35,862 bases of DNA, taken from assembly GCA_903833595.1 (NCBI GenBank), contig CAILFU010000004.1, positions 1-35,862 on the forward strand. The letters are read 5' to 3'. Source of the DNA: an uncultured Pseudomonadota bacterium. Its GTDB lineage: Bacteria; Pseudomonadota; Gammaproteobacteria; Burkholderiales; Methylophilaceae. Below the pieces are notes generated by a model. That model saw only the letters and a list, made by a program, of their open reading frames with translations, searched no databases and was not told the DNA's origin. This document shows positions 2,536 through 35,862 of the stretch, one piece after another (positions within the stretch are counted from its first letter, which is position 1; every line of letters begins with the position of its first letter). Made by a program: the position numbers and the translations under genes.

Positions 2536-2551
2536 ATACATATGGTATCAC
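2535..2551. promoter_or_regulatory. Putative operator, dyad TGATAC-ATATG-GTATCA
   Basis: Perfect 6-bp arms with 5-bp spacer, in the XRE/integrase divergent region, overlapping the -10 edge. Confidence 0.55.
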
Positions 2552-2569
2552 TTAATGGGCTGAAACATA

Positions 2570-13492: not shown

Positions 13493-13494
13493 AT

Positions 13495-16458: not shown

Positions 16459-16533
16459 CGCACTAAAATACCATAAGCATATGTTAAGGATTAGCCCTAA
16501 TATAAAGAAAAATCATGAAACCACCCACCGATT

Positions 16534-16558
16534 AAAAAAGCCACAACTGGCCTTTTTA
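16534..16558 (-). terminator. Terminator-like hairpin at the wzy stop codon (mid-operon)
   Basis: Minus strand: AAAAAGGCCA-GTTG-TGGCTTTTTT; GCCA/TGGC core, A/T flanks with one bulge, T6. Confidence 0.5.
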
Positions 16559-17860
16559 CTTGAAGCAACCGCCATACTTTAGCGTGCTAAGTTTATTATG
16601 CAATGGCTTTTTAACCAAATTACATTCATATTTTTGACTTAGCGACAATGAGATTAGTACGAATAAGATCATATGAAAAATTGCACTATCAGAGGACATC
16701 GCTAAGCCGCCATTAGTGCCCATGTAGAACAAAAATGAAATGCCTACACAAAATAATATATACCCAATATCACCACCAAGTCGCCTTGCGGCATCTATCA
16801 TGTATAAATAGGTGCCGAAATAAAGAACACTCCCCACTATGCCTAGCTTCATTATTGTTGCTAAAAAATCAACCTCATAACTAAAAGGGCGCTCTGTACT
16901 GCGAATTATGCTCGCAAAAGAACCAAAACCACTTCCAAATAGGGGGTTTTCGGTAATTTTATCTAGCAATGCAGGCACCTGTAAGAATCTTTCAAGAGTA
17001 GATGCATCTGAGGTCGTAAAATTAAAACGATCTTGAAGCCACTCAAAATTAATAACTAGTGTGAAAAATAATGGAATAACTACGAGACACAAATAAAAAG
17101 CCATTCTTTTAAACGAAACTCTTGCCTTGATTAAGGGTAACAAAAATAGAATTAGTAGAAACATACTAACAACTAAAGCACGGTGACCATCAGCGAACAC
17201 ACCAAACCCGAATAACAGCATGAAATATATGTGTTTTTTTTCATGGGTAATATAATAATTGTAAAAAGATAGACCAATACCAAGCAATAAAAAATGTGCT
17301 GTGTAAGTATATAACCCTAAAAAACCTCCATTGTGATCAATAATCCAATTCAAGCCCAACAACTTGACATAAAGATTTAGCTGGCCCAAAGATTCAGACT
17401 CAACAGAACCAAACGAAGTGTAATACCACAAAACAATAGCCACACTAATGACTGAAATGAAAGCGCACAATTGAATCAGAAAATTAACAAGATGCTGATG
17501 TAATCGACAAAAACAAATAAAGATAAAAAACACCGGCATGACGAATAGATAAATTGCAAATCCGAGCGAATCCTGTAATGCAAATGCCATGTTATTTTCA
17601 TGCAACGTTGCAACAAGTAACCAGCCGATATAAATCAAAGTGAACATAATAGTAATTTTGAATAAAATGCTATTAAGTATTGGTCGATTTAACAAAAAAA
17701 TATTGACCAAAACAACCAAAAAGATAGCAGTAAAACTAACCGCAATAAAAGGCTGGGCATACTGAGCTAATGGAGGATATAGCGTAAACGAAACCCCAAA
17801 AATATAGAGCAAAGCAATATTCGCTAGTCCAGGCTTAACTTTATATGTATCAACTTTCAA
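16556..17860 (-). CDS. O-antigen polymerase-like multi-pass membrane protein (Wzy-like)
   Basis: Many hydrophobic segments; 'RFLQVPALLDKITENPLFGSGFGSF' typical of Wzy/ligase-type loops. Confidence 0.75.
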   Translation of the reverse strand: MKVDTYKVKPGLANIALLYIFGVSFTLYPPLAQYAQPFIAVSFTAIFLVVLVNIFLLNRPILNSILFKITIMFTLIYIGWLLVATLHENNMAFALQDSLGFAIYLFVMPVFFIFICFCRLHQHLVNFLIQLCAFISVISVAIVLWYYTSFGSVESESLGQLNLYVKLLGLNWIIDHNGGFLGLYTYTAHFLLLGIGLSFYNYYITHEKKHIYFMLLFGFGVFADGHRALVVSMFLLILFLLPLIKARVSFKRMAFYLCLVVIPLFFTLVINFEWLQDRFNFTTSDASTLERFLQVPALLDKITENPLFGSGFGSFASIIRSTERPFSYEVDFLATIMKLGIVGSVLYFGTYLYMIDAARRLGGDIGYILFCVGISFLFYMGTNGGLAMSSDSAIFHMILFVLISLSLSQKYECNLVKKPLHNKLSTLKYGGCFK

Positions 17861-18705
17861 TTCTTTAGGGCCTGAATTAACAATGTAGATAACTTTAATT
17901 TACGCTTCAAATATGCCATTGATTTATTACTGTTTACAACTGTAAAACTATTATTGTCTTCTCTAGGCGTACTTTTAGCGTCTTTATGAATAACTTCAAT
18001 ACTAGGCTGATACAAAACTCTGAGATTATTCTGCATACAGTTATACGCAAGTAAATCTTCCTCACCATACATAAACAACGACTCATCAAGGTAGCCACAT
18101 TGATTAATGTAATGGCTAGTCAAATATAAAAAGCAACCGTGAATCATGTAAACATCACCTCTTTGCGTACCTTTTCTGCCACTGTCTTTTTGCTTACTAA
18201 TAATTCCATTTAAAAAAGGAATTAATTTATAAACCGTCTTACGTAGAAAAGATGCTGCCGAAGGGAAATGAATGTTTAGTACATAGCCAAGACCTGCCTT
18301 TTTCAGCATGGGGTTCTGATTATCATTCTCCAAATTAGTTACCTTCGGCCCAACAATCCCCAAGTCAACAGAATCAATTTGCTCTAACTGCTGAAGAATA
18401 TCTTTACTAACTACAAGAGTGTCACTTGTAGCAATGATTACATCAAAAATATTGAGGGATTCGAGTAGTTTTATTCCACAATTATTACCATAGGAATACC
18501 CCCCATTACGTCCACTAGAAATGACTCTAATATTAGGATGTTGAACATACTTATCGAACAAAACCTCAAACGAATCGTTAGGAGAGTCATTATCAACGAT
18601 CACAATAAAATAGTTTTTGCCAGATATGGCTAAAATACTTTCAACACAAGCAATTGATTCCTCATAATTAGAGTAATTCAATACTACAAAACCAAAATTT
18701 TTCAT
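17857..18705 (-). CDS. Glycosyltransferase family 2
   Basis: 'FVVLNYSNYEESIACVESIL...IVIVDNDSPNDS', 'GGYSYGNNCGI', 'DESLFMYGEEDLLAYN'; start adjusted from 18753 to the internal ATG. Confidence 0.88.
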   Translation of the reverse strand: MKNFGFVVLNYSNYEESIACVESILAISGKNYFIVIVDNDSPNDSFEVLFDKYVQHPNIRVISSGRNGGYSYGNNCGIKLLESLNIFDVIIATSDTLVVSKDILQQLEQIDSVDLGIVGPKVTNLENDNQNPMLKKAGLGYVLNIHFPSAASFLRKTVYKLIPFLNGIISKQKDSGRKGTQRGDVYMIHGCFLYLTSHYINQCGYLDESLFMYGEEDLLAYNCMQNNLRVLYQPSIEVIHKDAKSTPREDNNSFTVVNSNKSMAYLKRKLKLSTLLIQALKN

Positions 18706-18721
18706 CAAAATAAATTCCTGA

Positions 18722-19546
18722 TCATCGCAATTTATTCTTGAGGTGTTTTGCACTAAAAATCATTTTTTTGATTAATTGAAATAAATAGTGCGCCAGTTTT
18801 TCACTGGGCATTAAGAGCTTCCCTTTCAAGTGCTCTTTTGGCCTGGCCTTAAAAATTGTATTATGCTTGATACCATCCCAACCAGAGGGAGCTTCTTTAG
18901 TATAGTAATAAATTGCAAAAGATTTTCTCATTCTATCCATTGGGCAATTTATTGGAGTCACACCATGCCAACTGAAAGATCCAGTTGCAAACCCTGCTAA
19001 CCTATTGAATGTAGGCGCAAAACTCCCAATGCAATTCTTTACATCCTTATCCCATAGATCAAGATATCCACCAAATTCTTCATCCCAGTCCTTATTAAAA
19101 TATATGAGAAGATTCAATCGGCGATGCAACGCCAATTCTTCGTTATAATTAAAGTCAATGTGCACGTCCAAATGCCCACCTGTGTTTGTTGCATGTATAC
19201 CGCCACCACTCATATTTGGATCTGCAATTAAATTTTCAATTCCACTCATTTCGGAGATTAAGGCAACGAACTCCTTAGATACGAGTAAATCATATAATTT
19301 TTTTATAGGTGTTGGGTATTTCATACAGTCTGACACTTGAACTTTTCTTTTCTCGTTTATCGCGCGATACGTAACCCCTACATCAGCAGCTTCTTTATAT
19401 GATGGGAAAGAGTCATGGATTTTTAGTGCAAATTCCTCATCAAGAAAATTATCAAGGCAGAAATGAGGGAACCCTGGTGAATTTTTAAATTGAAATTTAC
19501 AGTTATCTATATCAAACTTATTCAGTAAAGATGAATCCATTTTCAT
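18722..19546 (-). CDS. 2OG-Fe(II) oxygenase-like (prolyl 4-hydroxylase type)
   Basis: 'GGHLDVHIDFNYNEELALHRRLNLLIYFNKDWDEEFGGYLDLWDKD' (HxD), 'FSWHGVTP' (distal His), 'RKSFAIYYYT' (2OG Arg). Confidence 0.8.
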   Translation of the reverse strand: MKMDSSLLNKFDIDNCKFQFKNSPGFPHFCLDNFLDEEFALKIHDSFPSYKEAADVGVTYRAINEKRKVQVSDCMKYPTPIKKLYDLLVSKEFVALISEMSGIENLIADPNMSGGGIHATNTGGHLDVHIDFNYNEELALHRRLNLLIYFNKDWDEEFGGYLDLWDKDVKNCIGSFAPTFNRLAGFATGSFSWHGVTPINCPMDRMRKSFAIYYYTKEAPSGWDGIKHNTIFKARPKEHLKGKLLMPSEKLAHYLFQLIKKMIFSAKHLKNKLR

Positions 19547-19581
19547 ATCCCTTATTATTTAATAACATATCGGATTAACAA

Positions 19582-20769
19582 TTAGCTTTTACTCTGTAGC
19601 TCTTCCAAAATTTCAATATACCTTTCACCAAACTTGATTATCCTAGCTCGTTGATCATTAAAAGAATCAATCTCTAATGAGGCAATCTGAGAATCGTTCT
19701 TATTCCAAACCTCTTCCATTAAATTAGACAACATAGCTGGATCTTTTGGATCGAAATATACGGCGTTCAAAGGATCCTGCTCAAGATGAACATCGATATT
19801 TGAAAGAATAGATTTTTTATTAATACTTCTAGCCTCTTCAACTGATGTGCTCCATCCCTCAAAAAAAGAGGGGTTAAGTAATGCAATGGAATTTCTTAAA
19901 AATCCATAAACCTCTTCAAGTTCTATAAGACCTAAAACTTTAATGTGCTCTTCCAGGTCATTATCTTTTAAAAATTTTAAGAATTTTTTAGCTGTTGTCG
20001 AATCCTTATCCCAAGGGTCATCTAGTGAGCCAGTACAAATAACTCTCACAAACTTCCCCCTTTTTTTAAGAAGTAGCACAGCCTCAGCCACAACAATGTG
20101 ATTCTTATGTTGCCAAAATTGATTGGGTAGGAAGAAAAACTTACCTGTAAAACAAAATTTCTCTTCTAGATACTCACGCGAAAATTTGACTATATTGGCA
20201 TTATTTAAAGTGCTACGAGATGCGAAATGTAACACCTTAGCCTTTTGAATAGCATCATTGCTTGCTATGCTTAAGAAATCTTTTAATGCGCTATGACTAC
20301 TCAATATGACAATATCACTAGCATCAAACAATTCTTTTAATTGCACTGATCGTTTATTTAAATCTAATCCGGGAAAATACTCAGGAAGGTGTAAATATTG
20401 AAAATCTGGGATCCAACTCACCAATCTAGTTGGCAATACATCTTTAACAATCATTGATCCATGAGAAACTACTGAAATGTCATATTTTTTCAATTCAGCT
20501 TTCACCATTATTTGAGATCTAAATAATCTGAATAAAACTCTATGAAAAAACCAACGTACAGTGTATTTAGTTAGAATATCAATAGTAATAACCGTGACAT
20601 ACAAACTAAATTCATCGATTATTTTTTGATTTACATCAGATCCTATAAATAAATATGGTTTAATTCGATTGTCATTTACTTGAGAGATTGAATATAAAAG
20701 ATTTCTAAAGTAATTTAGCCCTCCAGAGTACTCTTGCCCATAGTCGTACCAAAATCCAACTTTAATCAT
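19582..20769 (-). CDS. Glycosyltransferase family 4-like
   Basis: 'FFFLPNQFWQHKNHIVVAEAVLLL', 'LLNPSFFEGWSTSVEEARSINKKSILSNIDVHLEQ'. Confidence 0.87.
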   Translation of the reverse strand: MIKVGFWYDYGQEYSGGLNYFRNLLYSISQVNDNRIKPYLFIGSDVNQKIIDEFSLYVTVITIDILTKYTVRWFFHRVLFRLFRSQIMVKAELKKYDISVVSHGSMIVKDVLPTRLVSWIPDFQYLHLPEYFPGLDLNKRSVQLKELFDASDIVILSSHSALKDFLSIASNDAIQKAKVLHFASRSTLNNANIVKFSREYLEEKFCFTGKFFFLPNQFWQHKNHIVVAEAVLLLKKRGKFVRVICTGSLDDPWDKDSTTAKKFLKFLKDNDLEEHIKVLGLIELEEVYGFLRNSIALLNPSFFEGWSTSVEEARSINKKSILSNIDVHLEQDPLNAVYFDPKDPAMLSNLMEEVWNKNDSQIASLEIDSFNDQRARIIKFGERYIEILEELQSKS

Positions 20770-21697
20770 GATTGCATTTCATATGATTGAGCTTCCATTG
20801 CGCATACTTCTCAATACCCTTATGAAAGGGAATCATCGGTTTCCACCCTAACTTAAACACTCTAGTCATTTCGGCATGATAAAAACGAGGGTCACCCTCT
20901 CGAATTTCGCCATTGAATATTATTTCCGCGTTCACGTCCAATGCCATCTTTAGTGAATCCAAGGTTTTTCTTACAGTAACACGATGACCTGCCGCGCCAT
21001 TAAGTACCAAGTAATGTTCTTGTGAACGTGTTGCAACTATTATCAATTCGACAGCATCATCGATATAAATCCAATCACGAGTTTCATCGCCAGACCCCCA
21101 AAAAATAGCCTTACCATTCCCCGCACTAATTAGCTTATTACTTGCATCCCACAATAATTGCTTATTTAAACCAGGTCCGTAAATTGAAAAAAAACGAATT
21201 GCAACAGATTGGATTCCATAATTTTTTGAGTACGACTCCAAGAGCACTTCGGCAATACGTTTGTGAAAACCATAAGGTGAAATGGGATTAAGATCATCTG
21301 TTTCTTTGATTGGAGCATCTTCTTTAGCACCATAAACGCCAGCACTTGATGGATATACCAATATTGCCTTGGACTTTGTTATCCGTAAAAACTCCAGCAA
21401 CTCTATAGTACCTTGTACAGTTTTCGAGAAATCTTGCAAAGGATTTTCAATTGAATACCCAACCGAACCGTTGCCTCCACAATGCACCACAACATCAAAG
21501 CGATCATTTAAAGTCATTAGGCTTAATAATGAAATATTGCCGTCTAGCCAAATATCAAATCCAAACACTAAAGCTTCTTGGGCACCCCAAAGACCACGGC
21601 CAATCCCTACAACACGATAGCCTAACTGTTTAAACTTATTAGCAACAGCACGGCCAAGAAAGCCAAAACCTCCTGTAATTAATACGGTTTTCTGCAT
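20762..21697 (-). CDS. NAD-dependent epimerase/dehydratase (SDR), possible partner of Gmd
   Basis: 'VLITGGFGFLGRAVANKF', 'YPSSAGVYG', 'YGFHK', 'RDWIYIDDAVELI'; start moved to the ATG at 21697. Confidence 0.8.
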   Translation of the reverse strand: MQKTVLITGGFGFLGRAVANKFKQLGYRVVGIGRGLWGAQEALVFGFDIWLDGNISLLSLMTLNDRFDVVVHCGGNGSVGYSIENPLQDFSKTVQGTIELLEFLRITKSKAILVYPSSAGVYGAKEDAPIKETDDLNPISPYGFHKRIAEVLLESYSKNYGIQSVAIRFFSIYGPGLNKQLLWDASNKLISAGNGKAIFWGSGDETRDWIYIDDAVELIIVATRSQEHYLVLNGAAGHRVTVRKTLDSLKMALDVNAEIIFNGEIREGDPRFYHAEMTRVFKLGWKPMIPFHKGIEKYAQWKLNHMKCNHD

Positions 21698-21704
21698 TAC
21701 TGGT

Positions 21705-22634
21705 TTATACCTTCTTGGTCTTCTCAATTACACCAGAAATTTCAGAAATCTTCTTCAAAGCAGAAGCTTTCAGATCATAAAGTTGCAGATCTCGAATTTT
21801 ATCAAGTCGAGTTTCAAAATCATCATAAGTCAATTGACCATTCTCATCGTGAAATTCACGGAACTGAGCACGACGGTAGGCTTGAGCAGGCGACAACACT
21901 GGCAAGGATCCAACTAGATCATTGCGAACAAAAAATATATTATTGCCCACTGAATTTGATGCTACAAGTGAGTAGCCTTTAGCCGCTGCCAAGGAGCAAA
22001 AAGCTGAAATAGATGCCCCATAATAAATCTTAGAAAAATGCGCTGAATCTCGTACGAATTTGGCGTCATATGGGGTAGTGACCTCAGCCACCGGGCCAAA
22101 ATGGCTGTTATATTCACAAATAATGATACGTGGAGAAATCCTATCAATCGCTTCCCAAACCCAGTAATCATTACCATCAATATCTACCGAAAGCAGGCCG
22201 ATGTCACCCTCAATGCCATTCTTTACAAGCAACTCATTTATATTTTCTTTAGTTATAAAAGAGAGTTCTGCTTTAAGATTAGTCGCCCAGTAAATTTGAT
22301 CGCGACGAATGTAATCAATATTCTCCGAACTGCCATCAATAACTAGCCCAGACCATTGATTATTCGTCAGGAGAAATCGAGTGTTTGACTCAGTGTAATT
22401 CTCCACACCAAACTCAACAAAAATAGACCGTTCAATTGGAACATGATTTAATAAATACTGGATAATTCCATCTTCACCCCATTGTGAGAAAACCCTAAAC
22501 TCCGCCTGTGAATAACTAGCACTTTGAGCTGTTTGCCGTTGCTCTATACGACCAAGAGCCTCTTGAATCCTATAAATGCTACTTATTAGCGATGTGTAAC
22601 GCTCGTAAAATCGATGAATTCTTTTTATAATCAT
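21705..22634 (-). CDS. FkbM/SAM-methyltransferase-like conserved protein
   Basis: 'FRVFSQWGEDGIIQYLL', 'SIFVEFGVENYTESNTRFLL', 'IGLLSVDIDGNDYWVWEAI'. Confidence 0.55.
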   Translation of the reverse strand: MIIKRIHRFYERYTSLISSIYRIQEALGRIEQRQTAQSASYSQAEFRVFSQWGEDGIIQYLLNHVPIERSIFVEFGVENYTESNTRFLLTNNQWSGLVIDGSSENIDYIRRDQIYWATNLKAELSFITKENINELLVKNGIEGDIGLLSVDIDGNDYWVWEAIDRISPRIIICEYNSHFGPVAEVTTPYDAKFVRDSAHFSKIYYGASISAFCSLAAAKGYSLVASNSVGNNIFFVRNDLVGSLPVLSPAQAYRRAQFREFHDENGQLTYDDFETRLDKIRDLQLYDLKASALKKISEISGVIEKTKKV

Positions 22635-22646
22635 AAGTATTTTTCT

Positions 22647-23219
22647 TTAAAGTTTTTTAATAATTTTAGCTGGAACCCCAGCAACAACAGTGTAGTCAGG
22701 CACATCTTTTGTCACTACAGCATTTGCTGCCACAACAGAATTACGACCAATCGTGACACCTGGAAGTATCACAACCCCAATACCTATCCAGCATCCATCT
22801 CGCAAAGTCACCGCTCCTAGAAAGGAGTCACCTTGCAATCGAATTGGAATGGCGAGATCAGAAAAATTGTGATCTGCATCAGATATAAAAACACGATCTG
22901 CAATCAATACGTTATTACCTATTACCACACTCCGCCATGCATTGATTTGTACTAATCGACCGATATAAGTACCATCACCAATACTCAAAGTAGGCTTCCC
23001 ATCAAAACGATCATTCTTAGCATTCAACCATGCCATTTCGCCTATCGTTACACCACCACCAACCTGTATCAACCCTGCCCCAAGAATTTTTGCTCCTCGT
23101 GCTATCCTGGAACTCTTTCCCCAACAGGCAAACTGGCAACTAACGACATGCGAATAGCCTAGTGCCAACGCTTTATTAAGAAAATCAATACTTACATTTA
23201 ATAAATGTAAGAATTTCAT
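22647..23219 (-). CDS. Hexapeptide-repeat acyltransferase (WbbJ-like)
   Basis: Hexapeptide repeats; 'GCWIGIGVVILPGVTIGRNSVVAANAVVTKDVPDYTVVAGVPAKIIKKL'. Confidence 0.93.
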   Translation of the reverse strand: MKFLHLLNVSIDFLNKALALGYSHVVSCQFACWGKSSRIARGAKILGAGLIQVGGGVTIGEMAWLNAKNDRFDGKPTLSIGDGTYIGRLVQINAWRSVVIGNNVLIADRVFISDADHNFSDLAIPIRLQGDSFLGAVTLRDGCWIGIGVVILPGVTIGRNSVVAANAVVTKDVPDYTVVAGVPAKIIKKL

Positions 23220-23256
23220 AACAGACCATTCTGAGCGTGCAGAAAATAAATCATTT

Positions 23257-24648
23257 CTAAATGTGAGAATTCACATCTTCGAGGACTTGCATATACTTTT
23301 TCTCATCAAATGGTTCAAAGAATATAGGTGCTCTATGCAATTTACTAAAGTACTTGCCACTAGAATTATCAAAAAAATTCCTTAATTCAGAAGCATCATC
23401 AAATAGCTCAACATACTCAAAAATATCGTCATGCCAAAAATAATTTGACCGTTTATAAAGACATACTTTTTTTCCTGCCTGTAATGCAATATATAGAGTT
23501 GTTGAATGAATACCGACAACATAGTTGCAACGCTGATATAACTGTGAGAAATCCAGTTCATCACAGATGACCACTATATTGCCTTTCCCACTACAAGCTG
23601 CAACAACTTCACGCATTTTACTAAACTGGTGCGGATGGAGTTTATAGTATATTTTCTTATTCTCTACGAGCGTCGCAAGCTCGATTGCAAGACCAAGTAA
23701 ATCCTCATGGTACATATAAGCAGATACAATCAATACACCGTCATCTTTGCCCGCAATTAATTCTTGATGAAAATAGTCACTACCAATAGAACGCTTCATG
23801 CTCACTGGATAATTTGTATTGTCATTCCAAAAATCGGAATAAGTCAAATAAGCCGTCGGCAATGAAAGTCCCGGATGGTTGCTCTGAATAGATTGAGGGT
23901 ATGACCAAAATATTGTTTTGGATGATGATGCTCCATGCTGAAGCTCGATTACTGGAACTCCCATCTCTTTTGCTGCATGAAATAACCCATCTAATGTTCC
24001 ATTGTTAATGCAGATAACGGCGTTAGGCCGATGCATAGCAAAAAGCTTTATATAATAGTTTCTGTTTTCGAAAAAAGTGGTTATCGGTTCTGCTATTAAA
24101 TTGTAAACATCAATCGAAACATCAAAGTACTTATTTATCAAAGATGAAATTGTGATAACAGCATGTGATATATCAATCTCTCCATGTATTTTACGTACAG
24201 CAACTTGAGGGACCCTAGTCTTTCCACCGGAGATTAACTTCCAATAACTAATCTCAGCCTTATTCATAAGCTCCACTGCAACAGCATCTTTAGATACCAA
24301 ATCACACAAATGATCCGCAATATTGTCAACCAGAGATGTGCCATGTCTGATTCTTTGACCTGTAATAAATATAAATTTAGGTGCTTGAGTGACCAAGTAA
24401 CGACGTGAAATCATATTTACAAATGATTTAGCAACATTCTTGACTTTTGTAAGCATAGGCTTAGCAACTAAAGTTTTTGGGGTTGCAAATGGTCCTCCGT
24501 ATATAGTATGCAAACTCAGATAGATTTGACTTCTGATGGTATCCCAAAAATATATACCATCACCTATCTGTAGTGTGAAAAGATCTTCATATTCTTCCAT
24601 TTTAAAAAAAAGAGCTTGAATATTTTCTATTGTAACTTCACTTTTCAA
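23257..24648 (-). CDS. Putative GT-B-fold transferase (CDP-glycerol/polysialyltransferase-like)
   Basis: 'VPVIELQHGASSSKTIFWSYP', 'YYKLHPHQFSKM', 'LYQRCNYVVGIHSTTLYIALQAGKKVCLY'. Confidence 0.5.
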   Translation of the reverse strand: MKSEVTIENIQALFFKMEEYEDLFTLQIGDGIYFWDTIRSQIYLSLHTIYGGPFATPKTLVAKPMLTKVKNVAKSFVNMISRRYLVTQAPKFIFITGQRIRHGTSLVDNIADHLCDLVSKDAVAVELMNKAEISYWKLISGGKTRVPQVAVRKIHGEIDISHAVITISSLINKYFDVSIDVYNLIAEPITTFFENRNYYIKLFAMHRPNAVICINNGTLDGLFHAAKEMGVPVIELQHGASSSKTIFWSYPQSIQSNHPGLSLPTAYLTYSDFWNDNTNYPVSMKRSIGSDYFHQELIAGKDDGVLIVSAYMYHEDLLGLAIELATLVENKKIYYKLHPHQFSKMREVVAACSGKGNIVVICDELDFSQLYQRCNYVVGIHSTTLYIALQAGKKVCLYKRSNYFWHDDIFEYVELFDDASELRNFFDNSSGKYFSKLHRAPIFFEPFDEKKYMQVLEDVNSHI

Positions 24649-24667
24649 CCAAGCATCTCCAATCGGC

Positions 24668-25606
24668 CTAATTGGGATTTATACCGACATTAATTTGAGA
24701 TGCAACTACTCCATGCTCAGCACGCAGCAACGGAACCCCACGCAATACTGGATATGCAATACCTACCTGTTCTGCATAAAAAATATCACCTTGCTCAGCA
24801 AGTGGGGTACCCGTTAATGGGCACTGCCAACCAGACCATACTAACTTTATATCCGTCTTAGGTGCAGGATGAGGCTTGGCAATCAACACAACGCCACTGG
24901 GATTAAGAGGGTTACTACATATATCCAACAGCCTATACTCAACCACCTTTGCACCGAGTAACTCTGCGACTGACTTTAACCCTCTTACATAGCCATGCTC
25001 GGCCATTCTTTTCTGTGCCAGCTCAGACGCAAGTTCATAAATTGGCTCTACGAGGACCACAGCTTTGCGCGCAACACGCAATAATTCTTTAATGGCAGCC
25101 ACTTCCTGTCCACCGTTTGGCTCTAAAGAGTGTGATGTATAAATAACATCAATTGAATTGTCAGCTAATGGTATGCAAAAAAGGTCACCTACAAACAATC
25201 GTGCATCAATAGCACTTTCTTCTACCCATTGCTGTGCCACTTTAATCCTTGACCAACTTACATCAAAACCAAATGAAATAATTTCGCTGCAGTTAAATTC
25301 CTTTATTACCCCTGCAAGAGTGGTTGCCTCACCAACTCCGACTTCCAGTACACGATCACCTGCCTCTAAATAAGGCTTAATCAGTTCTGAAATCCGTTCA
25401 CACCATGCGTTGATGTAATTAGGATTTGCTCGCGCATTTGCCACATAACTACCCGCTTGAAGATCATAGGCCACTAAGGTGCTCGCAATCGAGTTATCTT
25501 TTCCAGTTGAGTTTGCACGCGCCCACGCCATTGCGTTATCTCCAAGCTCATATGCTCTTCGCATGCCCGCAATAACTCGGCCGAGTTCATGTACATCTGT
25601 TTTCAT
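24668..25606 (-). CDS. Class I SAM-dependent methyltransferase with Trm112-like C-terminal segment
   Basis: 'DRVLEVGVGEATTLAGVIKEF' motif I, 'NSIDVIYTSHSLEPNGG'; C-terminus 'WQCPLTGTPLAEQGDIFYAEQVGIAYPVLRGVPLLRAEHG'. Confidence 0.82.
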   Translation of the reverse strand: MKTDVHELGRVIAGMRRAYELGDNAMAWARANSTGKDNSIASTLVAYDLQAGSYVANARANPNYINAWCERISELIKPYLEAGDRVLEVGVGEATTLAGVIKEFNCSEIISFGFDVSWSRIKVAQQWVEESAIDARLFVGDLFCIPLADNSIDVIYTSHSLEPNGGQEVAAIKELLRVARKAVVLVEPIYELASELAQKRMAEHGYVRGLKSVAELLGAKVVEYRLLDICSNPLNPSGVVLIAKPHPAPKTDIKLVWSGWQCPLTGTPLAEQGDIFYAEQVGIAYPVLRGVPLLRAEHGVVASQINVGINPN

Positions 25607-25693
25607 CGTCGCTACCTTTTATAATAAGTTGTATGTAGTTTAATCATTACAATGATCGTATTTTTATGAAAGCCAAATTTTGGCAAATTTAAG

Positions 25694-26332
25694 CTAACTT
25701 ATTGAGAATAGCATTGCGCGAAAAATTTTAATATTTCCTGCAAATACCTGGCCAAATCTAGACTTACCTTGCCTCTCTCGCACATCAAACAGCACTTGCT
25801 TAATTTGATAACTATTCCTCGCAGCGAAGATCGTTAATTCAGTTCCGACTGACCCGTACGCGTCAAAGTGACCAAGCGCATTAAAAACAGCAATTCGATA
25901 TGCCTTCATTCCGCACAGAGGGTCTTTAATGCCAAAACGCAAGGAAGTATAAAAAGCAAAAATATGCTCTGCTAAACGTTGCTTACGACTCCTAACGCCG
26001 ACGACAACATCGGCACCGGCATCTATGGCATCAATAAACTTCTGTATAAGCATTGGATTATGCTGCCCATCGGCATCTACTGTAATAACCAGATCACAAC
26101 CAATCTCATCTGCCATAAGAAAACCAGAATTAAGTGCTCCATCATAACCACGATTTACACTGTGCGACACAACAACGGCTCCATTTTGTTCTGCCAACTC
26201 TGCCGTTGCATCTGTAGACCCATCATCAACAACAATTGGAACGCCATATTTCTTAGCAGCCATAACAACGGCGGCTATTGTCGCTGATTCATTAAGTGCT
26301 GGGATTACAATTGCTATTCGAGATCTATCCAC
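25694..26332 (-). CDS. Glycosyltransferase family 2 (DPM1-like)
   Basis: 'IVIPALNESATIAAVV', 'IVVDDGSTDATAELAE', 'LVITVDADGQHNP'. Confidence 0.9.
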   Translation of the reverse strand: MDRSRIAIVIPALNESATIAAVVMAAKKYGVPIVVDDGSTDATAELAEQNGAVVVSHSVNRGYDGALNSGFLMADEIGCDLVITVDADGQHNPMLIQKFIDAIDAGADVVVGVRSRKQRLAEHIFAFYTSLRFGIKDPLCGMKAYRIAVFNALGHFDAYGSVGTELTIFAARNSYQIKQVLFDVRERQGKSRFGQVFAGNIKIFRAMLFSIS

Positions 26333-27411
26333 CGAAGATGCTCTCCCACACTAAGATTTCTTCGAACTCTCTTCCCAATTAACTTAGGAAGTTCATATGG
26401 GGGTAGCCCATCAGGAGGACATGGGCGCAAAACTATAAGATGCTCACGCGTCAATGAACAGCCCGCTTCCAGATTAACTGCCATGCGAACAGCTCTGCGT
26501 TGCACTACTACCGTTTCTTTTTCATTATCTTCTACCTGTTTAATCCCACTCCCCATCGCGTTTTCCAGCTCATGAGTACGGTCAACCATATCACGCCATG
26601 ATTTTGGATCCATTGAAAACGCATGGTCTGGTCCGACACGCTTTACATCATCGGTAAAGTGTTTTTCAATCATCCTTGCACCTAATGCAACAGCACCTAG
26701 CACCGTTGCATGACCTGGCGTATGGTCACTCAGACCAAGCACTAAATCAGGGTACATTTCTCGATAAACTTTCAATACATTAAGTTGAATAAATTTAAAG
26801 TTCTCCAGACTGGCTGTATAGTTAGTATTGCACTGCATTAAACATAACATTGGATTTATCGCAATTGCTGCAGAGACCGCACGAAGAACATCATCTATCG
26901 TGGATGCACCTGTCGCCATAATGTAAGGTTTTTGCTTTAAAGCAATATATTCAATCATTTCAATCCAGGTGACATCCCCAGAGCCCACTTTATAAGCCGG
27001 TACATAAGGATCAATATGATCAACAATTTCGAGTGAATAAGGGCTAGTAAAGAAAGCAATGCCAGCTTTATCGCAAGTTTCTTTTAGTGTAGGTGTCCAA
27101 TCCAAACTAACACTCGCATCCTTATAAACTTCAAACACAGATTTCTTCCAACTGGACTGGTGCGACTGCTGTCCTCCCAAAGTTTTAAATCCTAAATCAC
27201 TGACAATTGTACCCGCTGTAAAGTGTTGGAATTTAGCCGCATCAGCACCGGCCTCCGCTGCCAAAAAGATCAAATCTTTAGCTCGCTCAAGATCTCCATC
27301 GTGATTAGCCGCTATATCTGCGATAAAATAAGTTGGATAGTCACGGCCTATTTTCTTTTCATTAATCTCTAAAGTCTGACTAGGTGATTGCATCATATTC
27401 CTTCGCAACAC
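26314..27411 (-). CDS. NeuB-family nonulosonate synthase (divergent) with C-terminal SAF domain
   Basis: 'YFIADIAANHDGDLERAKDLI', 'AYKVGSGDVTWIEMIEYIA', 'LGLSDHTPGHATVLGAVALGARMIEKHFTDD'; SAF tail 'LIGKRVRRNLSVGEHL'. The start may be the ATG at 27396. Confidence 0.88.
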   Translation of the reverse strand: MLRRNMMQSPSQTLEINEKKIGRDYPTYFIADIAANHDGDLERAKDLIFLAAEAGADAAKFQHFTAGTIVSDLGFKTLGGQQSHQSSWKKSVFEVYKDASVSLDWTPTLKETCDKAGIAFFTSPYSLEIVDHIDPYVPAYKVGSGDVTWIEMIEYIALKQKPYIMATGASTIDDVLRAVSAAIAINPMLCLMQCNTNYTASLENFKFIQLNVLKVYREMYPDLVLGLSDHTPGHATVLGAVALGARMIEKHFTDDVKRVGPDHAFSMDPKSWRDMVDRTHELENAMGSGIKQVEDNEKETVVVQRRAVRMAVNLEAGCSLTREHLIVLRPCPPDGLPPYELPKLIGKRVRRNLSVGEHLRWIDLE

Positions 27412-28249
27412 TTTTAATTTGGTCTATTAAGCTAGGTAATTTAACACCTAATGTATTTTCAAACTTTGAATTATCCATCCGCATATCCTTCGGCCTATAA
27501 GCCTTTAGAAAAGTTGCTTGACTAGCATCAATCCGGGTCATCGTTGCTGTAGGTAAATTTAGATAGTCGGCAAAGGCAAAATCAAAATCAGCCTTGCTCA
27601 TGCCATCATGCGATCCAAGGTTAAATATTCCGAGAGGCTTTTTCTCAACGACCAGCTCAATCATTTCAACAAGAGTAGCCATTGAAAGCGGACTAAAATA
27701 TACATCCTTTAGCACTTGAACATGCTTACCGCTTGTTAGCGAGTTATAAACCCAGTCAGTAAGGCTCTCTCTATTTCCAACTTTACTACGCCCAACAAAA
27801 TTAGTTCTAAGTATGGTGCTGGGTACTCGTAAAGCAGCTAACTCACCAGCATATTTTGAAAAGGCATAATTGTTCGTCAAGGTAATTTGATCTTCAGTAT
27901 GCTCGCATGCACCGTCGTACACTTGATCGGTGGAAATTTGAATGAGATGAGCATTTGCTTCCGTTTCTATTATCCATTGAGCCATGTTCTCAACCGTTCG
28001 TGTATTAATCAGGTAGGATTCATTCGCATAATCTTGACAACGCTCAACACTTGTCAGCCCGACAAGATTGATGATAACGCTAGGCTTAAGCTTATTAAGC
28101 AAAGAGAACGTTTCATTTTTACTTGACAAATCCGCAGTGTAATCCGCATTAGCCTGACGTGCGTGAGTGGCTACCGCCCTACCCTGTGCTTTAAATTTTG
28201 GGACTAGAGTTGAACCAAGAAGACCCGTTGAACCAGTAATTAAAATCAT
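27380..28249 (-). CDS. RmlD-like SDR sugar-nucleotide reductase
   Basis: 'MILITGSTGLLGSTLVPKF', 'QISTDQVYDG', 'YAFSKYAGEL'. Confidence 0.85.
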   Translation of the reverse strand: MILITGSTGLLGSTLVPKFKAQGRAVATHARQANADYTADLSSKNETFSLLNKLKPSVIINLVGLTSVERCQDYANESYLINTRTVENMAQWIIETEANAHLIQISTDQVYDGACEHTEDQITLTNNYAFSKYAGELAALRVPSTILRTNFVGRSKVGNRESLTDWVYNSLTSGKHVQVLKDVYFSPLSMATLVEMIELVVEKKPLGIFNLGSHDGMSKADFDFAFADYLNLPTATMTRIDASQATFLKAYRPKDMRMDNSKFENTLGVKLPSLIDQIKSVAKEYDAIT

Positions 28250-28261
28250 GATTTTTCCAAC

Positions 28262-28942
28262 TTACAGTAATGCTTTAAACAACAATTCAGCTCGCATCCA
28301 ATCATCGTCAGTATCTATATCCACGACTCTCCAATTTGGAATAGGCATACCAAGACCTGCTGTATGCATTTTCTTTTTTGCCAACCAAGCTGTGGACTTA
28401 CCCCAATAAAACTGCCCAGCATCATGATAAGATTTTTCCAAATCCTGTGTACGTGTTAGCTCGAACTGGGGCGCATAAAACTCCATTGCACCATCTGGCA
28501 ACCTTCGCATTGCACGCTGTATTGGGTGAGCATATTCTGCAACCGGATAGACAAAATCAGCATTCTGAGCAACAGCTAATTCATACGCTGCCAGTAAATC
28601 ACTGGCCTGCAAAGATGGAGCACACGGATATATACAGCAAGCAAAATTCACTTCCCAACCCAACGCAATACATGATTCAACAGCATGTGCAACCACAGGT
28701 ACTGTAGGTGTAAGATCATCAGCCAACTCTACAGGCCTTTTAAATGGCGTTTCTGCCCCTGAGTCCCGCGCTATTTGCGCGATTTCCTCATCATCCGTCG
28801 AAACAATAATGTGATCAAACAATCCTGAATTCTCTGCCGCTTTAATCGCCCATGAGATCATAGGTCTACCGCAAAATTCTTTAATATTTTTTCTTGGGAT
28901 TCTCTTACTTCCACCACGCGCTGGTATCACGGCTATTTTCAT
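28262..28942 (-). CDS. Acylneuraminate/pseudaminate cytidylyltransferase family (PseF-like)
   Basis: 'MKIAVIPARGGSKRIPRKNIKEFCGRPMISWAIKAA', 'IIVSTDDEEIAQIA'. Confidence 0.9.
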   Translation of the reverse strand: MKIAVIPARGGSKRIPRKNIKEFCGRPMISWAIKAAENSGLFDHIIVSTDDEEIAQIARDSGAETPFKRPVELADDLTPTVPVVAHAVESCIALGWEVNFACCIYPCAPSLQASDLLAAYELAVAQNADFVYPVAEYAHPIQRAMRRLPDGAMEFYAPQFELTRTQDLEKSYHDAGQFYWGKSTAWLAKKKMHTAGLGMPIPNWRVVDIDTDDDWMRAELLFKALL

Positions 28943-28992
28943 AATTCATCCATCCTAGATAAGACGATCCTCTAAACTAACAATATCCTTAA

Positions 28993-30768
28993 TCAAGTCG
29001 CAACGATGTCCTGGTAAGAGCCTACACGTTTAACCCTACCCTCACTAAGCTCTACTATTTGCGTACAATTTTTAAGTGTAGTAAGACGATGAGCGATAAT
29101 CAAAACCGTTAAGTCATTTGCGAGCCCTTCTATTGAGCGCATCACAGCCTGCTCCGTCTCACCGTCTAAAGCACTTGTTGCTTCATCAAAAATAATAACA
29201 TCAGCCTGTTTATATAGTGCACGAGCAATGCCAATACGCTGGCGTTGTCCGCCAGACAAGCGTACGCCACGCTCACCTACAAATGTTTCGTATTTTTCGG
29301 GTAAAGCTTCAATAATATCTGAAATTTGTGCCTGCTTAGCAGCTTCCTCTACACGCGCTTTGTTTATTTGGCTTTTCAATACGCCAAAAGCAATATTTTC
29401 TTCAATGGAACTATCCGCCAGAAAAATTGCTTGTGGCACATGCGCAATATGCGTTTGCCAAGCTCGATGATTAATATTCTTCACAACTTGTCCATCAACT
29501 TCAAGCACACCACCCTCATTTGCATTCAGCAAACCCATAACAATGTCAAGAAGCGTGCTTTTGCCACTCCCAGTCGTGCCGATAAAACCAATCACACTGC
29601 CTTTTTTTATAGTGAGATTTACGTCATTAAGAACACAAGCCGTCAGAGGACTATAGCGAAATGAAAGTTGCCTTATGCATATTTCTTTTTGAAATACTAG
29701 GGGGATAGGCATTGGTTGATCAGCATACTCAGGTAGGGGCTGATCTAACAAATAAAGCGTGTCCTGCAAGGAGGCTTGACCACCTTGAATGCTCGACCAT
29801 GAAGCATACGCTTGCTGTAATATTGGTAATAATCTTTGGGCGCCTAATGCTAAAGCACCAAGTACTGGTATAGCCTTAGCTACTCCACCTGATTGCTGAG
29901 CTAAAGCGTAAGCCAGAATGGCAATTAATACCATACCTAATGATTCCATCCCATATCGAGGAAACATGGAAATGAAAAAGTTATTGCCCTGTGCTCGACG
30001 CAACGACTGATCGGCACGACCATATATCTGACAATAAACTGACTGACTGCCATCAATTAATACATCACGTATCCCGCCCAATCCTTCTTGTAAGGATTTA
30101 ATAACATTAGTTGACTCACGAGCAATTCTCTGGCTATCGCGCATCATCTGATTTCTTGTTAGCTTTATGATAGAAATGTAAATGAGTCCGAATCCAGCAA
30201 ACGCAGATAATGCAATTACAGGTTCAACAACCAACATTGCAATAAGTATAGTAGTAATCATAATGCTGGCGCTTATAAGCGTTAAAATTGGCACGACAAT
30301 ATTGTAGATTACGCCATTGGCTTTATTCGAAATTCCATTAATGACCTCACTACTGTTCCGAGCCACATGTACAGCATATGGTTGATATAGCGTACGACGG
30401 TAAATATTAATACTAAGATCTGCACCTGTTGCAAAAGAGAGTCGAGTACTAACCCAAAGCATTAATAGGCGAGTTATTCCTGCAATACATGCAGCCAAAC
30501 TAAAAATAACCGTCAGCGGTAACAATAGTTGTTTTGACTCTGTTAGACCAAGTACATGAATTAAGGGCTGAATGAGGGGATGCACAAAAATACGATCTGG
30601 TGCAGTCAACACCCCTAAAAATGGTAACACTGCACCAATACTAAAAATTTCAGCAAAAGACGCAAAAATCATAAGGATTAGAAGAATTGCAAATTGTCTT
30701 CTCCTTTTGAAACTGACGTGGAACCAAAGACGTTTTAAAAGACTAGTAATGGATGGATTTGAATTCAT
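28993..30768 (-). CDS. ABC half-transporter (PglK/MsbA-type), candidate lipid-linked oligosaccharide flippase
   Basis: N-terminal TMD; Walker A 'GTTGSGKSTLLD', signature 'LSGGQRQR', Walker B 'VIIFDEATSALD'. Confidence 0.88.
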   Translation of the reverse strand: MNSNPSITSLLKRLWFHVSFKRRRQFAILLILMIFASFAEIFSIGAVLPFLGVLTAPDRIFVHPLIQPLIHVLGLTESKQLLLPLTVIFSLAACIAGITRLLMLWVSTRLSFATGADLSINIYRRTLYQPYAVHVARNSSEVINGISNKANGVIYNIVVPILTLISASIMITTILIAMLVVEPVIALSAFAGFGLIYISIIKLTRNQMMRDSQRIARESTNVIKSLQEGLGGIRDVLIDGSQSVYCQIYGRADQSLRRAQGNNFFISMFPRYGMESLGMVLIAILAYALAQQSGGVAKAIPVLGALALGAQRLLPILQQAYASWSSIQGGQASLQDTLYLLDQPLPEYADQPMPIPLVFQKEICIRQLSFRYSPLTACVLNDVNLTIKKGSVIGFIGTTGSGKSTLLDIVMGLLNANEGGVLEVDGQVVKNINHRAWQTHIAHVPQAIFLADSSIEENIAFGVLKSQINKARVEEAAKQAQISDIIEALPEKYETFVGERGVRLSGGQRQRIGIARALYKQADVIIFDEATSALDGETEQAVMRSIEGLANDLTVLIIAHRLTTLKNCTQIVELSEGRVKRVGSYQDIVAT

Positions 30769-30845
30769 GTATTAATAGATATGAACGCTATTGAGTAGTG
30801 CAAAATGTGGGTGTGTTGCATAAACTCTATCGCGACTCATAACTT

Positions 30846-31967
30846 TTAACTTTCAATACTAACACTCACAATATACCCATTATTTTTTAACAATGCGTGC
30901 TGCTTAGCAGTATCCAAATCAGAGGCCATCATCTCAGCACACATTTCTTGAACTGTAATTTCGGGCACCCAACCTAATTTCTCTTTTGCTTTAGTTGGGT
31001 CACCTAACAACGTCTCAACTTCAGTAGGACGGAAGTAACGAGGATCAATGCGAACAATCACATCTCCTACCTTCAATGCGGGAGCATTATCCCCAACAAT
31101 GGATACAACACTTGCAGTTTCATCCACACCCTTACCATCAAATTTCAAAGTAACCCCAAGCTCTGCTGCAGACCACTCAATAAACTGACGAACACTATAC
31201 TGAACACCGGTCGCAATCACAAAATCATCAGGCGTATCTTGCTGTAGCATCATCCACTGCATACGCACGTAATCCTTCGCGTGACCCCAGTCACGTAGCG
31301 CATCGATGTTACCCATATAAATACAGGATTCCAAACCCTGAGCGATATTAGCTAATCCACGTGTGATTTTACGTGTCACAAAAGTCTCGCCACGACGAGG
31401 GCTCTCATGATTAAACAAGATGCCATTACAGGCATAGATACCATAGGCTTCACGGTAGTTCACCGTAATCCAGTATGCATACATCTTGGCGGCGGCATAT
31501 GGGCTACGTGGATAGAATGGCGTGGTTTCCTTTTGAGGAATCTCTTGTACTAGACCATAGAGCTCTGAAGTAGACGCTTGGTAAAAACGCGTCTTTTTCT
31601 CAAGACCTAGTATGCGGATTGCTTCAAGCAGCCTCAAGGTACCAATCGCGTCCACATCTGCTGTGTATTCCGGACTCTCAAAACTGACCGCTACATGACT
31701 CTGGGCACCTAGGTTATAAATCTCGTCAGGCTGAGTTTCTTGAACAATACGAATCAAGTTACTAGTATCTGTTAAGTCGCCGTAATGTAGTTTGAAGTCC
31801 GCACTTTCAATATGAGGGTCTTGATAAATGTGATCAACACGCTGAGTATTAAGCGAACTGGCACGGCGTTTAATACCGTGCACTATGTAGCCTTTTTCTA
31901 ATAAGAACTCTGCTAAATATGAGCCATCTTGTCCCGTAATGCCGGTAATTAATGCAACTTTTTTCAC
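30846..31967 (-). CDS. gmd: GDP-mannose 4,6-dehydratase
   Basis: '[44 protein letters not shown]', '[25 protein letters not shown]'. Confidence 0.97.
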
Positions 31968-33427
31968 TTTATAACCAACCTTCCATAGGCATCTTCAAAC
32001 CGAATAATATCATCCTCACCCAAATAGGTTCCCGACTGCACTTCAATCAATTCAAGCATTTCCTTTCCCGGGTTTGCAAGTCGATGTATTGCACCCAAAG
32101 GGATGTAGGTCGATTGATTTTCGGCAAGCATGAAAGTTACATCACCACAAGTTACTTCAGCCACGCCATTCACCACAACCCAATGCTCGGCACGATGCTC
32201 GTGTTTCTGTAAGCTTAGACTCTCACCCGGTTTCACCACTATAAGCTTAACTGTAAAATTTTCACTCTCATCTAAACGGTTAAACCAACCCCAAGGTCGA
32301 TGCACCTTGCGTGGCAAAATATGCTCTGAGCGCTTGAGTGCTGCGAGCTCACTCACTATCTTTTTAACATGCTGGCTCTGACTCTTATCGGCTACTAGTA
32401 TCGCATCGGCGGTTTCTACCACAATCAAATTATTTACACCCACGGTGCCAACTAACCGACTACTCGCATGAATAAACGTATTGGTCGTGTCCGCCATTAA
32501 CGTATCGCCGTGCGTCACGTTGCCATCGCCATCCTGTACACTCACCTGCCACACCGCATCCCAAGCGCCTAAATCATTCCAACCTGCATCCAGCGGCACC
32601 ATCTTGATGGCAAAGGCTGAGCCAGGACATTTTTCTAGGACGGCGTAGTCTACTGAGTCACTGGGAATATTCGTAAAAGCGACTTGGTCAGGGCGCACAA
32701 ACTGCGCATCAACCGTTTTTTGGGAGAAGGCTTGTTGGGTTGCACTTAAAATCGCTGGACTAAAATGCGCTAAGGCTTTGAGCCAAGTGCTGGCTTTTAA
32801 GACAAACATACCACTATTCCAGGCATAGTCACCACTGGCTACATATTGCGCTGCCGTCGCTAAGTCCGGCTTTTCGGCAAACTGGGCAACGGTGTACTCA
32901 CTATTCACCCCTTGCACACCCTGGTGCTTGATATACCCATAACCCGTCTCTGGTTTATCGGGGGTAATGCCTAAAATTACAATACTGCCATCGGCCGCGG
33001 CGCGGACGCTTTGTTGCAAGGCTTGAGTAAACGCTGGGTCATTCATTACTGTTTGATCTGCAGGGGTCACGACAAGAATAGGATCTTCACCATCCTTAAC
33101 CGCCTGCAAAGCCGCAAACGTTAAAGCCGGTGCGGTATTACGTCCCACCGGTTCTAACAACAAGGTCGCCGCAACCTCAGGCATCTCACGTAACTGATCC
33201 AGTGCCAAGAAGCGATGCTCTTCCCCCGTCACAATCAAGGTGTCACCCAGCACAATATCCTCTGCGCCTAAGCCATTCACGCGTTCTATTGCCTGCTGGA
33301 ATAAACTCGTTGTGCCAGACAATACCAAGAACTGTTTTGGAAATCCTGCTCGAGACAATGGCCACAGCCTGGTGCCAGAGCCACCACAGAGAATTACCGG
33401 TACAATTTGATGAGGATGTTTATTCAT
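31964..33427 (-). CDS. manC: Mannose-1-phosphate guanylyltransferase / mannose-6-phosphate isomerase
   Basis: '[27 protein letters not shown]', '[10 protein letters not shown]', C-terminal cupin 'RPWGWF...[19 protein letters not shown]'. Confidence 0.96.
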
Positions 33428-33493
33428 TTATTATTAGTTAGGCCCGCTATTGCCCGCTCTCAGCCGACCTTCTGCAAAACACTGTTTTGGCTT

Positions 33494-34756
33494 TCACAGA
33501 CGGCCATCCACTTCATCTTTGGGAAACATGCCCTTGATATCGTAGATGACGCCAGTGCCGCTCACCAGTCGACGAATGCCCTCAATACCAACGCTTTTAA
33601 ACTCATCATGGGCAACCGCTACAACCACCGCATCGTAACGCTCCTCTACGGGCATCGCTGCTAACAGGTCAATGGCATATTCATATTTTGCTTCAGCGCG
33701 ATCAGCCCATGGGTCGTAAATATCAACCTGAGCGCTAAAGCCTTCTAGCTCTCGCACCAGATCAATCGTGCGCGTATTACGCAGGTCGCCACAGTTCTCT
33801 TTAAAGGTAAAGCCCAGTACCAATATGCGTGACCTGGCAATCGTATGGCCTTTATGAATCATGCGCTTTATCACTTCACCGGCTACGTGATTGCCCATGG
33901 AATCATTAATGCGTCTGCAGGCAAGTAAAATGTCTGGATAGTAGCCCACTGACTGCGCCTTTTGAATCAGATAATAAGGGTCCACACCAATGCAGTGCCC
34001 CCCCACCAAGCCCGGCTTGTATGGCAGGAAGTTCCACTTGGTCCCGGCGGCCTCCAGAACATCGTGGGTGTCGATCCCCAAACGGTTAAAAATAAGGGCA
34101 AACTCGTTAATCAAGGCAATGTTTACATCCCGCTGCGTATTCTCGATGACTTTAGAAGCCTCTGCCACCTTAATGCTGGGCGCCTTGTGCGTGCCGGCGG
34201 TGATGATGCTCCTGTATAGCGTGTCCACCAATTCCGCAGCCTCAGGGGTAGAGCCAGAGGTTACCTTGGTAATATTGACCAGACGCCGCTGCTTGTCCCC
34301 TGGATTAATGCGCTCAGGACTATAACCGACGGTGAAGTCTACGTTTAATTTTAAATTCGAAAGTCGTTCGAGTTCCGGTATGCATATCTCTTCGGTCGCC
34401 CCTGGATATACGGTGGATTCGTAAATCACCAGGTCGCCTTTTTTTAGGACAGTGCCAATCATTTGGCTGGCTATCACCAAGGGACTTAAATCTGGGCGCT
34501 TGTCATCATCAACCGGCGTGGGTACTGTGGTGATAAATACGGTACAGTCCGCAAGCGCTAAAATGTCGGTGGTGTATGTGAGGAATCGAGCCTCATTGAG
34601 CTCTTCCGAGTTCACCTCTAGGGTGTGGTCATGGCCGGATTGAAGCTCCGCAACACGCTTGGCGTTAATGTCAAACCCTACGACCGGGCCCTTCTTGCCA
34701 AATTCCACAGCAAGCGGCAGTCCGACATACCCTAGACCAATAATCGCTATCTTCAT
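33494..34756 (-). CDS. tviB: Nucleotide-sugar dehydrogenase (TviB-type UDP-GlcNAc 6-dehydrogenase)
   Basis: '[31 protein letters not shown]', '[29 protein letters not shown]', '[17 protein letters not shown]'. Confidence 0.92.
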
Positions 34757-34899
34757 TTTGATATACTTACTTTAATAAAAAAAATTATGATTATACAGAA
34801 AGTGCTTTACTGACTCGTAGACAGCAAGCAACACTTCCCTATATGGCGGTAACAGGGCAAAGTGAACTATTTACACCCATCTCATTAACCTCCAACAGC

Positions 34900-35286
34900 T
34901 TAGCCATGACCACGCTCATAAGGCACAGCCTCAACGACAAGCGCCTGCACGTCCATTTGTTGTTGCAGGGCTTCAATCTCGGCCTTTAGGGCGACGTATT
35001 CTTGCTGCTTGCGCTGTAAAAAGTGCGCAGTCAACGACAGCTTCTCGGCCATGCCCTGCGGCGTCAACAAATAAGCATAACCCAACTTATTGTCGTTCGC
35101 TTGGAAGTTGTGCATCTTGATAAGGCCCTTGGTCACCAGCGCACGTAAGCAATAGTTGACGCCACCCAAGCTCACGCCCAAGGCTTTAGCCATCTCGCGC
35201 TGATTCAAATCAGGCTGACTTTCGAGCAAGCTGAGCACCCGGAAGTGGGTGTCCTCTTGCAACTGCTGTTGGCGGGTCAGGGGCAT
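34900..35286 (-). CDS. MarR-type EPS-associated transcriptional regulator
   Basis: 'LTRQQQLQEDTHFRVLSLLESQPDLNQREMAKALGVSLGGVNYCLRALVTKGLIKM' wHTH; coiled-coil tail. The track start is GTG at 35307 (inside the ops element); the internal ATG at 35286 is preferred. Confidence 0.85.
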   Translation of the reverse strand: MPLTRQQQLQEDTHFRVLSLLESQPDLNQREMAKALGVSLGGVNYCLRALVTKGLIKMHNFQANDNKLGYAYLLTPQGMAEKLSLTAHFLQRKQQEYVALKAEIEALQQQMDVQALVVEAVPYERGHG

Positions 35287-35303
35287 AATGTAGGGATATC
35301 TAG

Positions 35304-35316
35304 GCACGCTACCGCC
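35304..35316 (-). promoter_or_regulatory. ops (operon polarity suppressor)/JUMPstart-type element
   Basis: Minus strand GGCGGTAGCGTGC, matching the ops core; 17 nt before the ATG at 35286 of the first gene of the minus-strand locus. Confidence 0.8.
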
Positions 35317-35352
35317 CTACTGTGTGGCCATCAGTCGGGCGGGGGGTGCGTC

Positions 35353-35380
35353 TACAAGGGGTATGATTGAAGCCCTTGTA
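35353..35380. repeat. Inverted repeat TACAAGGG-12 nt-CCCTTGTA
   Basis: Perfect 8-bp arms in the divergent intergenic region. Confidence 0.7.
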
Positions 35381-35602
35381 CGAAGTTGAACAACTGTAGC
35401 ATAGCCGGGTTTCATTTGTCTATCATTAGACGGTCATTTACCTGAATTATTGATGGGCATGCCCTATTCATGCCTGGCGCTTGCGAAATAAGGACCGCAT
35501 GTCGCATAATCAACCCTATGCATAACCGCTCTCATCCTGATCAAGCTCACCCTGAAGCTTCACTCCCTTTATTGCTAACCTCCTCTACTTAAGCGCCCCC
35601 TT

Positions 35603-35862
35603 ATGACCGCTAAAACAACCCCGATTCACCTAGACCGTCTGATGACCACCTCCAACGTCGGCTTTGGCACCAGCGGCGCGCGCGGTTTGGTGAGCGACAT
35701 GACGGACACGCTGTGCTACGCCTATACCCTGGCATTTTTACAGGCGGTGGTAGGCAGGCCTTGCCCGCTGGTGCTCGGTCATGATTTACGTCCGAGCAGC
35801 CCACGGATGGCAGCAGCCTGTGCTACGGCGATGCGGGATGCGGGCTATACGGTGATCTACGC
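35603..35862 (+). CDS. Phosphomannomutase/phosphoglucomutase, partial (runs off window)
   Basis: Manual translation: MTAKTTPIHLDRLMTTSNVGFGTSGARGLVSDMTDTLCYAYTLAFLQAVVGRPCPLVLGHDLRPSSPRMAAACATAMRDAGYTVIYA; 'FGTSGARG' and 'GHDLRPSS' phosphohexomutase motifs. Confidence 0.9.
   Translation, partial: MTAKTTPIHLDRLMTTSNVGFGTSGARGLVSDMTDTLCYAYTLAFLQAVVGRPCPLVLGHDLRPSSPRMAAACATAMRDAGYTVIY

Follow-up and report, generated by a model that had tools for sequence, protein, structure and literature searches.

A candidate ops/RfaH system in the leader of a surface-polysaccharide operon of an uncultured Methylophilaceae bacterium

We believe that this uncultured Methylophilaceae bacterium very probably has an RfaH-loading ops site in the 5' leader of a long operon for surface polysaccharides. 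The stretch of DNA that was analysed (35,862 nucleotides, hereafter the window) and its relatives support, at the level of sequence, a genuine ops/RfaH system, a good, lineage-specific example of a mechanism known from gut bacteria, in which the signal loads RfaH so that transcription reaches the end of very long gene clusters. In the proposed course of events, RNA polymerase would start at a predicted promoter at 35393-35422 on the minus strand. Initiation there would probably be under the control of a MarR family EPS-associated transcriptional regulator (MarR_EPS), itself encoded in the operon, which would bind a palindrome that covers the start site. After a further 70-80 nt or so the polymerase would pause at ops, where RfaH, encoded approximately 1.76 kb upstream, may read the exposed non-template strand. 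RfaH would then remain on the polymerase, exclude NusG and Rho, and carry the polymerase, perhaps with a ribosome, through approximately 31 kb of glycan genes.

The ops element and the operon that it precedes

The ops element, GGCGGTAGCGTG, is located at 35305-35316 on the minus strand, matches the canonical 12-nt ops exactly and is kept in the leaders of relatives; the non-template strand carries the 12-nt GGCGGTAGCNTG. The letters given in the initial annotation, namely ops at 35316-35305, the two arms around it, and an ATG at 35286-35284 that follows 3 nt past the second arm with no purine-rich Shine-Dalgarno (SD) sequence, were all found as described. There is one exact copy of GGCGGTAGCGTG in the 2.06-Mb genome, which is also the sole exact match in the window, where 12 matches with up to two mismatches were found (approximately 5 expected). 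A second genomic GGCGGTAGCNTG is antisense to the fabD/fabH genes, and there are no others. The letter match on its own is weak evidence. Among the 187 genomes of the window's family, 12 of the 17 exact ops 14-mers were inside ORFs, and raw ops counts per genome were uninformative, because chance copies also occur in genomes without RfaH. We judged the element to be real because of its position, its conservation and its co-occurrence with RfaH. Within the family genomes G371-G479, a conserved FAD-oxidase-like gene (GGSVP motif) was observed to hold exact ops 14-mers repeatedly, and this gene is a coding-constraint decoy in ops searches.

The first gene of the operon (34900-35286, minus strand) encodes MarR_EPS, a protein of 128 aa that scored 152.1 bits against the TIGR04176 equivalog cut-off of 88 bits. 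Its SD-less ATG lies 18 nt after ops, and this start is supported by alignment. An in-frame GTG inside ops (35307) was considered as the start and rejected, since the frame and the distance to ops vary in close relatives and the ATG region aligns. On the same strand, MarR_EPS is followed by 31 further colinear genes (3527-34756), presumably RfaH-controlled, for nucleotide-sugar enzymes, glycosyltransferases, an ABC transporter, a Wzy-like protein, an initiating sugar transferase, nonulosonic acid functions and RmlA/RmlC. The run of 32 genes from 35286 to 3527 covers 31.8 kb with a largest gap of 143 nt, which bears out the locus of approximately 31 kb proposed earlier. Terminator-like sites within 16000-35000 were not above shuffles. 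The 143-nt gap, which could hold a second promoter, separates MarR from the next gene; a crude promoter scan of that strand found none in it. We believe that ops serves the long operon and not MarR, because two related loci (L051 and L055) have an intact ops leader although stop codons or a lost start have broken MarR_EPS, a leader of this type stands before manC in G413, and ops follows MarR in G088.

Two other regions of the window were observed. Inside the glycan operon, positions 12713-15209 hold a HisH/HisF-like pair, which resembles the amidotransferase modules of acetamidino-sugar pathways, and an adjacent protein without a Pfam match. At the far end of the operon (472-3499) there are a phage integrase-family gene (2570-3499, plus strand) and an AbiEii-type toxin gene (472-1218, minus strand), and their presence suggests a mobile or island boundary.

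RfaH and its co-occurrence with ops

The initial annotation had proposed that a specialised NusG paralogue acts on this locus and that the genome should be searched for its gene. Such a gene was found, adjoining the locus. The genome encodes NusG in the usual secE-nusG-rplK setting and one second paralogue, RfaH, which passed the TIGR01955 equivalog cut-off (169.9 versus 144.5 bits) and had the E. coli RfaH structures as its best solved relatives; its UpxY score was below the cut-off (75 versus 100 bits). The right end of the window carries the 5' part of a phosphomannomutase/phosphoglucosamine-mutase-like gene (35603-35862, plus strand), which is divergent from the operon. Inside this gene, the window shares a 141-base exact overlap (reverse complement) with contig C166, which has rfaH on the other side. 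When the two contigs are joined, the order is a wzz-like gene, rfaH, an opposite-strand gene, the promoter, ops and MarR_EPS, and the rfaH stop codon stands approximately 1.76 kb upstream of ops. The shared end is assembly evidence for the adjacency of rfaH and ops, short of proof. On two related contigs (L086 and G432), rfaH and ops-MarR_EPS are present on a single contig, and rfaH adjoins ops-MarR in several further lineages. L086 is filed under a Geobacter MAG, has a MarR_EPS 83% identical to the window protein, and is either a misbinned contig or a case of transfer.

The order was sampled with 300 genomes, among which MarR_EPS (TIGR04176) was over or near the cut-off in approximately 49. 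A separate collection scan used a single protein as its query, because the MarR alignment was too diverse. Limnobacter humi NBRC 111650, a cultured relative with the same layout, has both ops-MarR_EPS and an RfaH. RfaH was called above 95 bits, well apart from NusG, and ops was counted when an exact or one-mismatch copy was no more than approximately 100 nt upstream of the MarR_EPS gene. RfaH was present in 19 of the 49 genomes, and ops preceded MarR_EPS in 13 of these 19 and in 0 of the 30 genomes without RfaH (Fisher p = 1.0e-7, a value of the kind that relatedness inflates). Three families (f1, f21 and f46) each hold both states, and the contrasts within them agree with the link between ops and RfaH. 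The relatives with ops at the same place span nine families of the order, and the flank is conserved. In three of the six exceptions with RfaH (G088, G295 and G236), ops was just downstream of the MarR/HTH gene, and in G088 it was directly before gmd. Within the window's family, 12 of the 187 genomes had RfaH; a leader ops near the polysaccharide locus was found in 6 of these 12 and in 1 of the 175 others. Genome G410 (98% complete, 80 contigs) had a leader ops, and RfaH was not found in it. Taken across these genomes, the sequences support an ops that is conserved and tied to RfaH.

In E. coli RfaH, the side chains named as touching ops directly are those of K10, H20, R23 and R73 (PMC5995543). 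RfaH residues from 19 related loci were aligned with E. coli RfaH. The RfaH of the window's genome keeps K10 and carries H20N, R23Q and R73I. Across the 19 loci, K10 was present in nearly all, H20 was mostly N, with H only in one damaged copy, R73 was variable, and N70 was replaced by R throughout. The autoinhibition contacts E48 and R138 were present in the window's RfaH and in nearly all of the 19 loci. Recognition of ops by this RfaH is not guaranteed, because the H20 (N) and R73 (I) contacts are missing. The mismatch lowers the case for an identical mode of recognition and leaves the assignment to the RfaH family intact; the DNA signal has stayed the same, and the surface that reads it is partly altered.

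Promoter, leader structures and competing explanations

The predicted promoter consists of a -10 TACAGT with an extended TG (35393-35398, minus strand), for which TGCTAyAGT is also found in L086, and a -35 TAGACA (35417-35422, minus strand; spacer 18) called from a consensus match only. Because the predicted promoter is upstream of ops, ops should be transcribed; a transcription start site (TSS) downstream of the element, which would speak against the initial annotation, is not what the sequence predicts. The promoter, 60-105 nt upstream of ops, is overlapped by a conserved palindrome, and in the window this is the predicted MarR_EPS operator TTGTTCAA-CT-TCGTACAA (35376-35393, minus strand) over the predicted TSS. 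With a TSS within the palindrome, ops should be at about +70 to +81. The sequence TTGTTCAACTTCGTACAA (35393-35376), directly after the -10, is the genome's best match to TTGTTCAANNTTGAACAA, with two mismatches and at a single place. A perfect GTTCA-N4/5-TGAAC was present close to the start in 38 of 50 MarR_EPS genes, compared with 0 of 1000 shuffles; therefore, the palindrome is very probably the MarR_EPS operator. Exact GTTCAAN{2,4}TTGAAC had zero matches in the window's own genome, and the degenerate 18-mer search located the site. The automated palindrome scan chose a weaker site in the window, and 35376-35393 was placed by alignment together with the degenerate genome search. In the ops-less relatives among the approximately 50 MarR_EPS loci, all without an SD, the start codon was observed to follow the palindrome by only about 5-30 nt, and their mRNAs are therefore probably near-leaderless.

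A conserved leader block of the type CTGATsGnnnACrGyAk (35317-35340, minus strand) is at a constant distance from ops in 13 sequences aligned without gaps, and a related block is located before manC in G413. This block contains a short stem-loop (35319-35335, minus strand; ACUG 35335-35332 paired with CAGU 35322-35319) on the immediate 5' side of ops, in a JUMPstart-like position, with a stem of 4-5 bp, a loop of 9 nt and a distance of 1-2 nt to ops. In the 13 leaders, 90.8% of the stem cells were paired, compared with 18-55% when the partner was slid. In four sequences one stem pair was A-U in place of G-C; this may reflect a single event. The Rfam JUMPstart model RF01707 gave 16 bits for the window and 24.6 for L087, against a gathering score of 35. 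We infer that this stem-loop stabilises the ops pause. A longer pairing of the 5' half of ops with an upstream CCGCCC arm was tried and rejected: its z was -2.6 to -3.2 in the window, and in relatives the pairs differed and z was weak.

The initial annotation had explained the same leader by another arrangement, in which ops sits in a hairpin (GTAGGG 35320-35315 and CCCTAC 35295-35290; 35290-35320, minus strand) beside an SD-less start, and ribosomes recruited by RfaH control the translation of MarR_EPS. The ATG is only 18 nt past ops and has no SD, E. coli RfaH is able to recruit 30S to SD-less leaders (PMC5995543, PMC13015549), and TAGGG/CCCTA can pair in three of four close relatives. However, the spacing of this pairing varies and its downstream arm is absent elsewhere; the hairpin is potential only, with a z of -0.5 to -0.9 and 67 and 36 of 200 shuffles folding equally well, and it is missing from the full-leader MFE, where a better upstream stem competes. 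The letters of the hairpin were therefore upheld, and its role as a regulatory structure was not. An SD (4-nt match, proper spacing) was found in none of the approximately 50 MarR_EPS genes, 30 of them from genomes that have neither RfaH nor ops, compared with a match at 11% of random window positions; half of the genes in the window's operon also have no recognisable SD. Genes with and without ops or RfaH share the SD-less start, which therefore characterises the MarR_EPS gene family; the proposal that it marks RfaH-dependent translation of the first gene is not supported. Since ops can also follow MarR (G088, G295 and G236), and the leader and ops remain where MarR is broken (L051 and L055), we consider this translational explanation unlikely.

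It could also be argued that a 12-mer came to lie near a gene start by chance, for exact 14-mers do arise by chance or coding constraint, as their frequency inside ORFs of the family indicates. The recurrence of the element at one position in relatives from nine families, with a conserved flank and RfaH co-occurrence, refutes this in practice, and we find it scarcely credible. An ops that is only a pause of RNA polymerase, or a NusG-dependent pause, with RfaH uninvolved, is a better supported but still distinctly improbable reading. The window's RfaH is without two ops-contact residues, and approximately 13 nt separate the end of the stem-loop from the expected 3' end of the pause downstream of it, which fits the spacing rule for hairpin-stabilised pauses. 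Moreover, ops is described as a consensus pause for diverse RNA polymerases in a passage of PMC7593976. Yet an RfaH-free pause would be expected in relatives that lack RfaH but share the MarR_EPS promoter, and it was seen in 0 of 30. We thus return to an ops that loads RfaH for the long operon as the preferred explanation.

Comparison with known systems

No paper on TIGR04176, or on Methylotenera with RfaH, was found in our literature search. What appears to be new, judging from these alignments, is the conserved stem-loop 5' of ops, the predicted MarR_EPS operator, and a set of RfaH homologues with K10, E48 and R138 but without H20 and usually without R73. The ops is unchanged in lineages whose RfaH lacks two residues thought to be essential for its recognition, which offers a test of whether the reading of ops is older than H20 and R73 or does not depend on them. 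With the layout of rfaH, promoter/operator, ops and MarR_EPS, the uncharacterised MarR_EPS family also acquires a concrete operator prediction and an operon as its target. The mode of RfaH recruitment is known in detail for E. coli RfaH only, according to a passage of PMC7593976. We tentatively speculate, as a possibility that we would not yet favour, that the Burkholderiales RfaH reads the same ops by other contacts (K10 kept, H20 to N, R73 variable, N70 to R), helped by a pause-stabilising stem-loop and behind a MarR_EPS-controlled promoter, which would make one cassette a two-gate switch, with MarR_EPS acting at initiation and RfaH at elongation.

The closest known systems are in part the same. 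Polarity suppression by ops and RfaH at E. coli rfb, rfa, kps, hly and tra shares with the window the exact 12-nt ops, its position in the leader of a long operon for envelope polysaccharide, and an RfaH paralogue, with E48 and R138, beside the housekeeping NusG. In contrast to E. coli, rfaH here adjoins its target and is not remote, the first gene is MarR_EPS, H20 and R73 are not conserved, and residue 70 is R in place of N. In JUMPstart RF01707, too, a stem-loop directly precedes GGGCGGUAGCGUG ahead of polysaccharide genes (PMC2864571), but the stem-loop sequence here is another one, and the Rfam score is below gathering. The cis-acting NusG paralogues, namely UpxY, TaA and monomorphic RfaH (PMC13015549), are similarly encoded beside a glycan operon; the system in the window differs from them in using an exact ops. 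Genes of RfaH cluster CL4 neighbour an HTH regulator in a passage of Wang et al. 2020 (PMC7593976), and this neighbourhood is very likely the same as the rfaH-MarR_EPS neighbourhood of the window; the passages on CL4 describe no ops, operator or leader, and it is in these three elements that the present system differs from that account.
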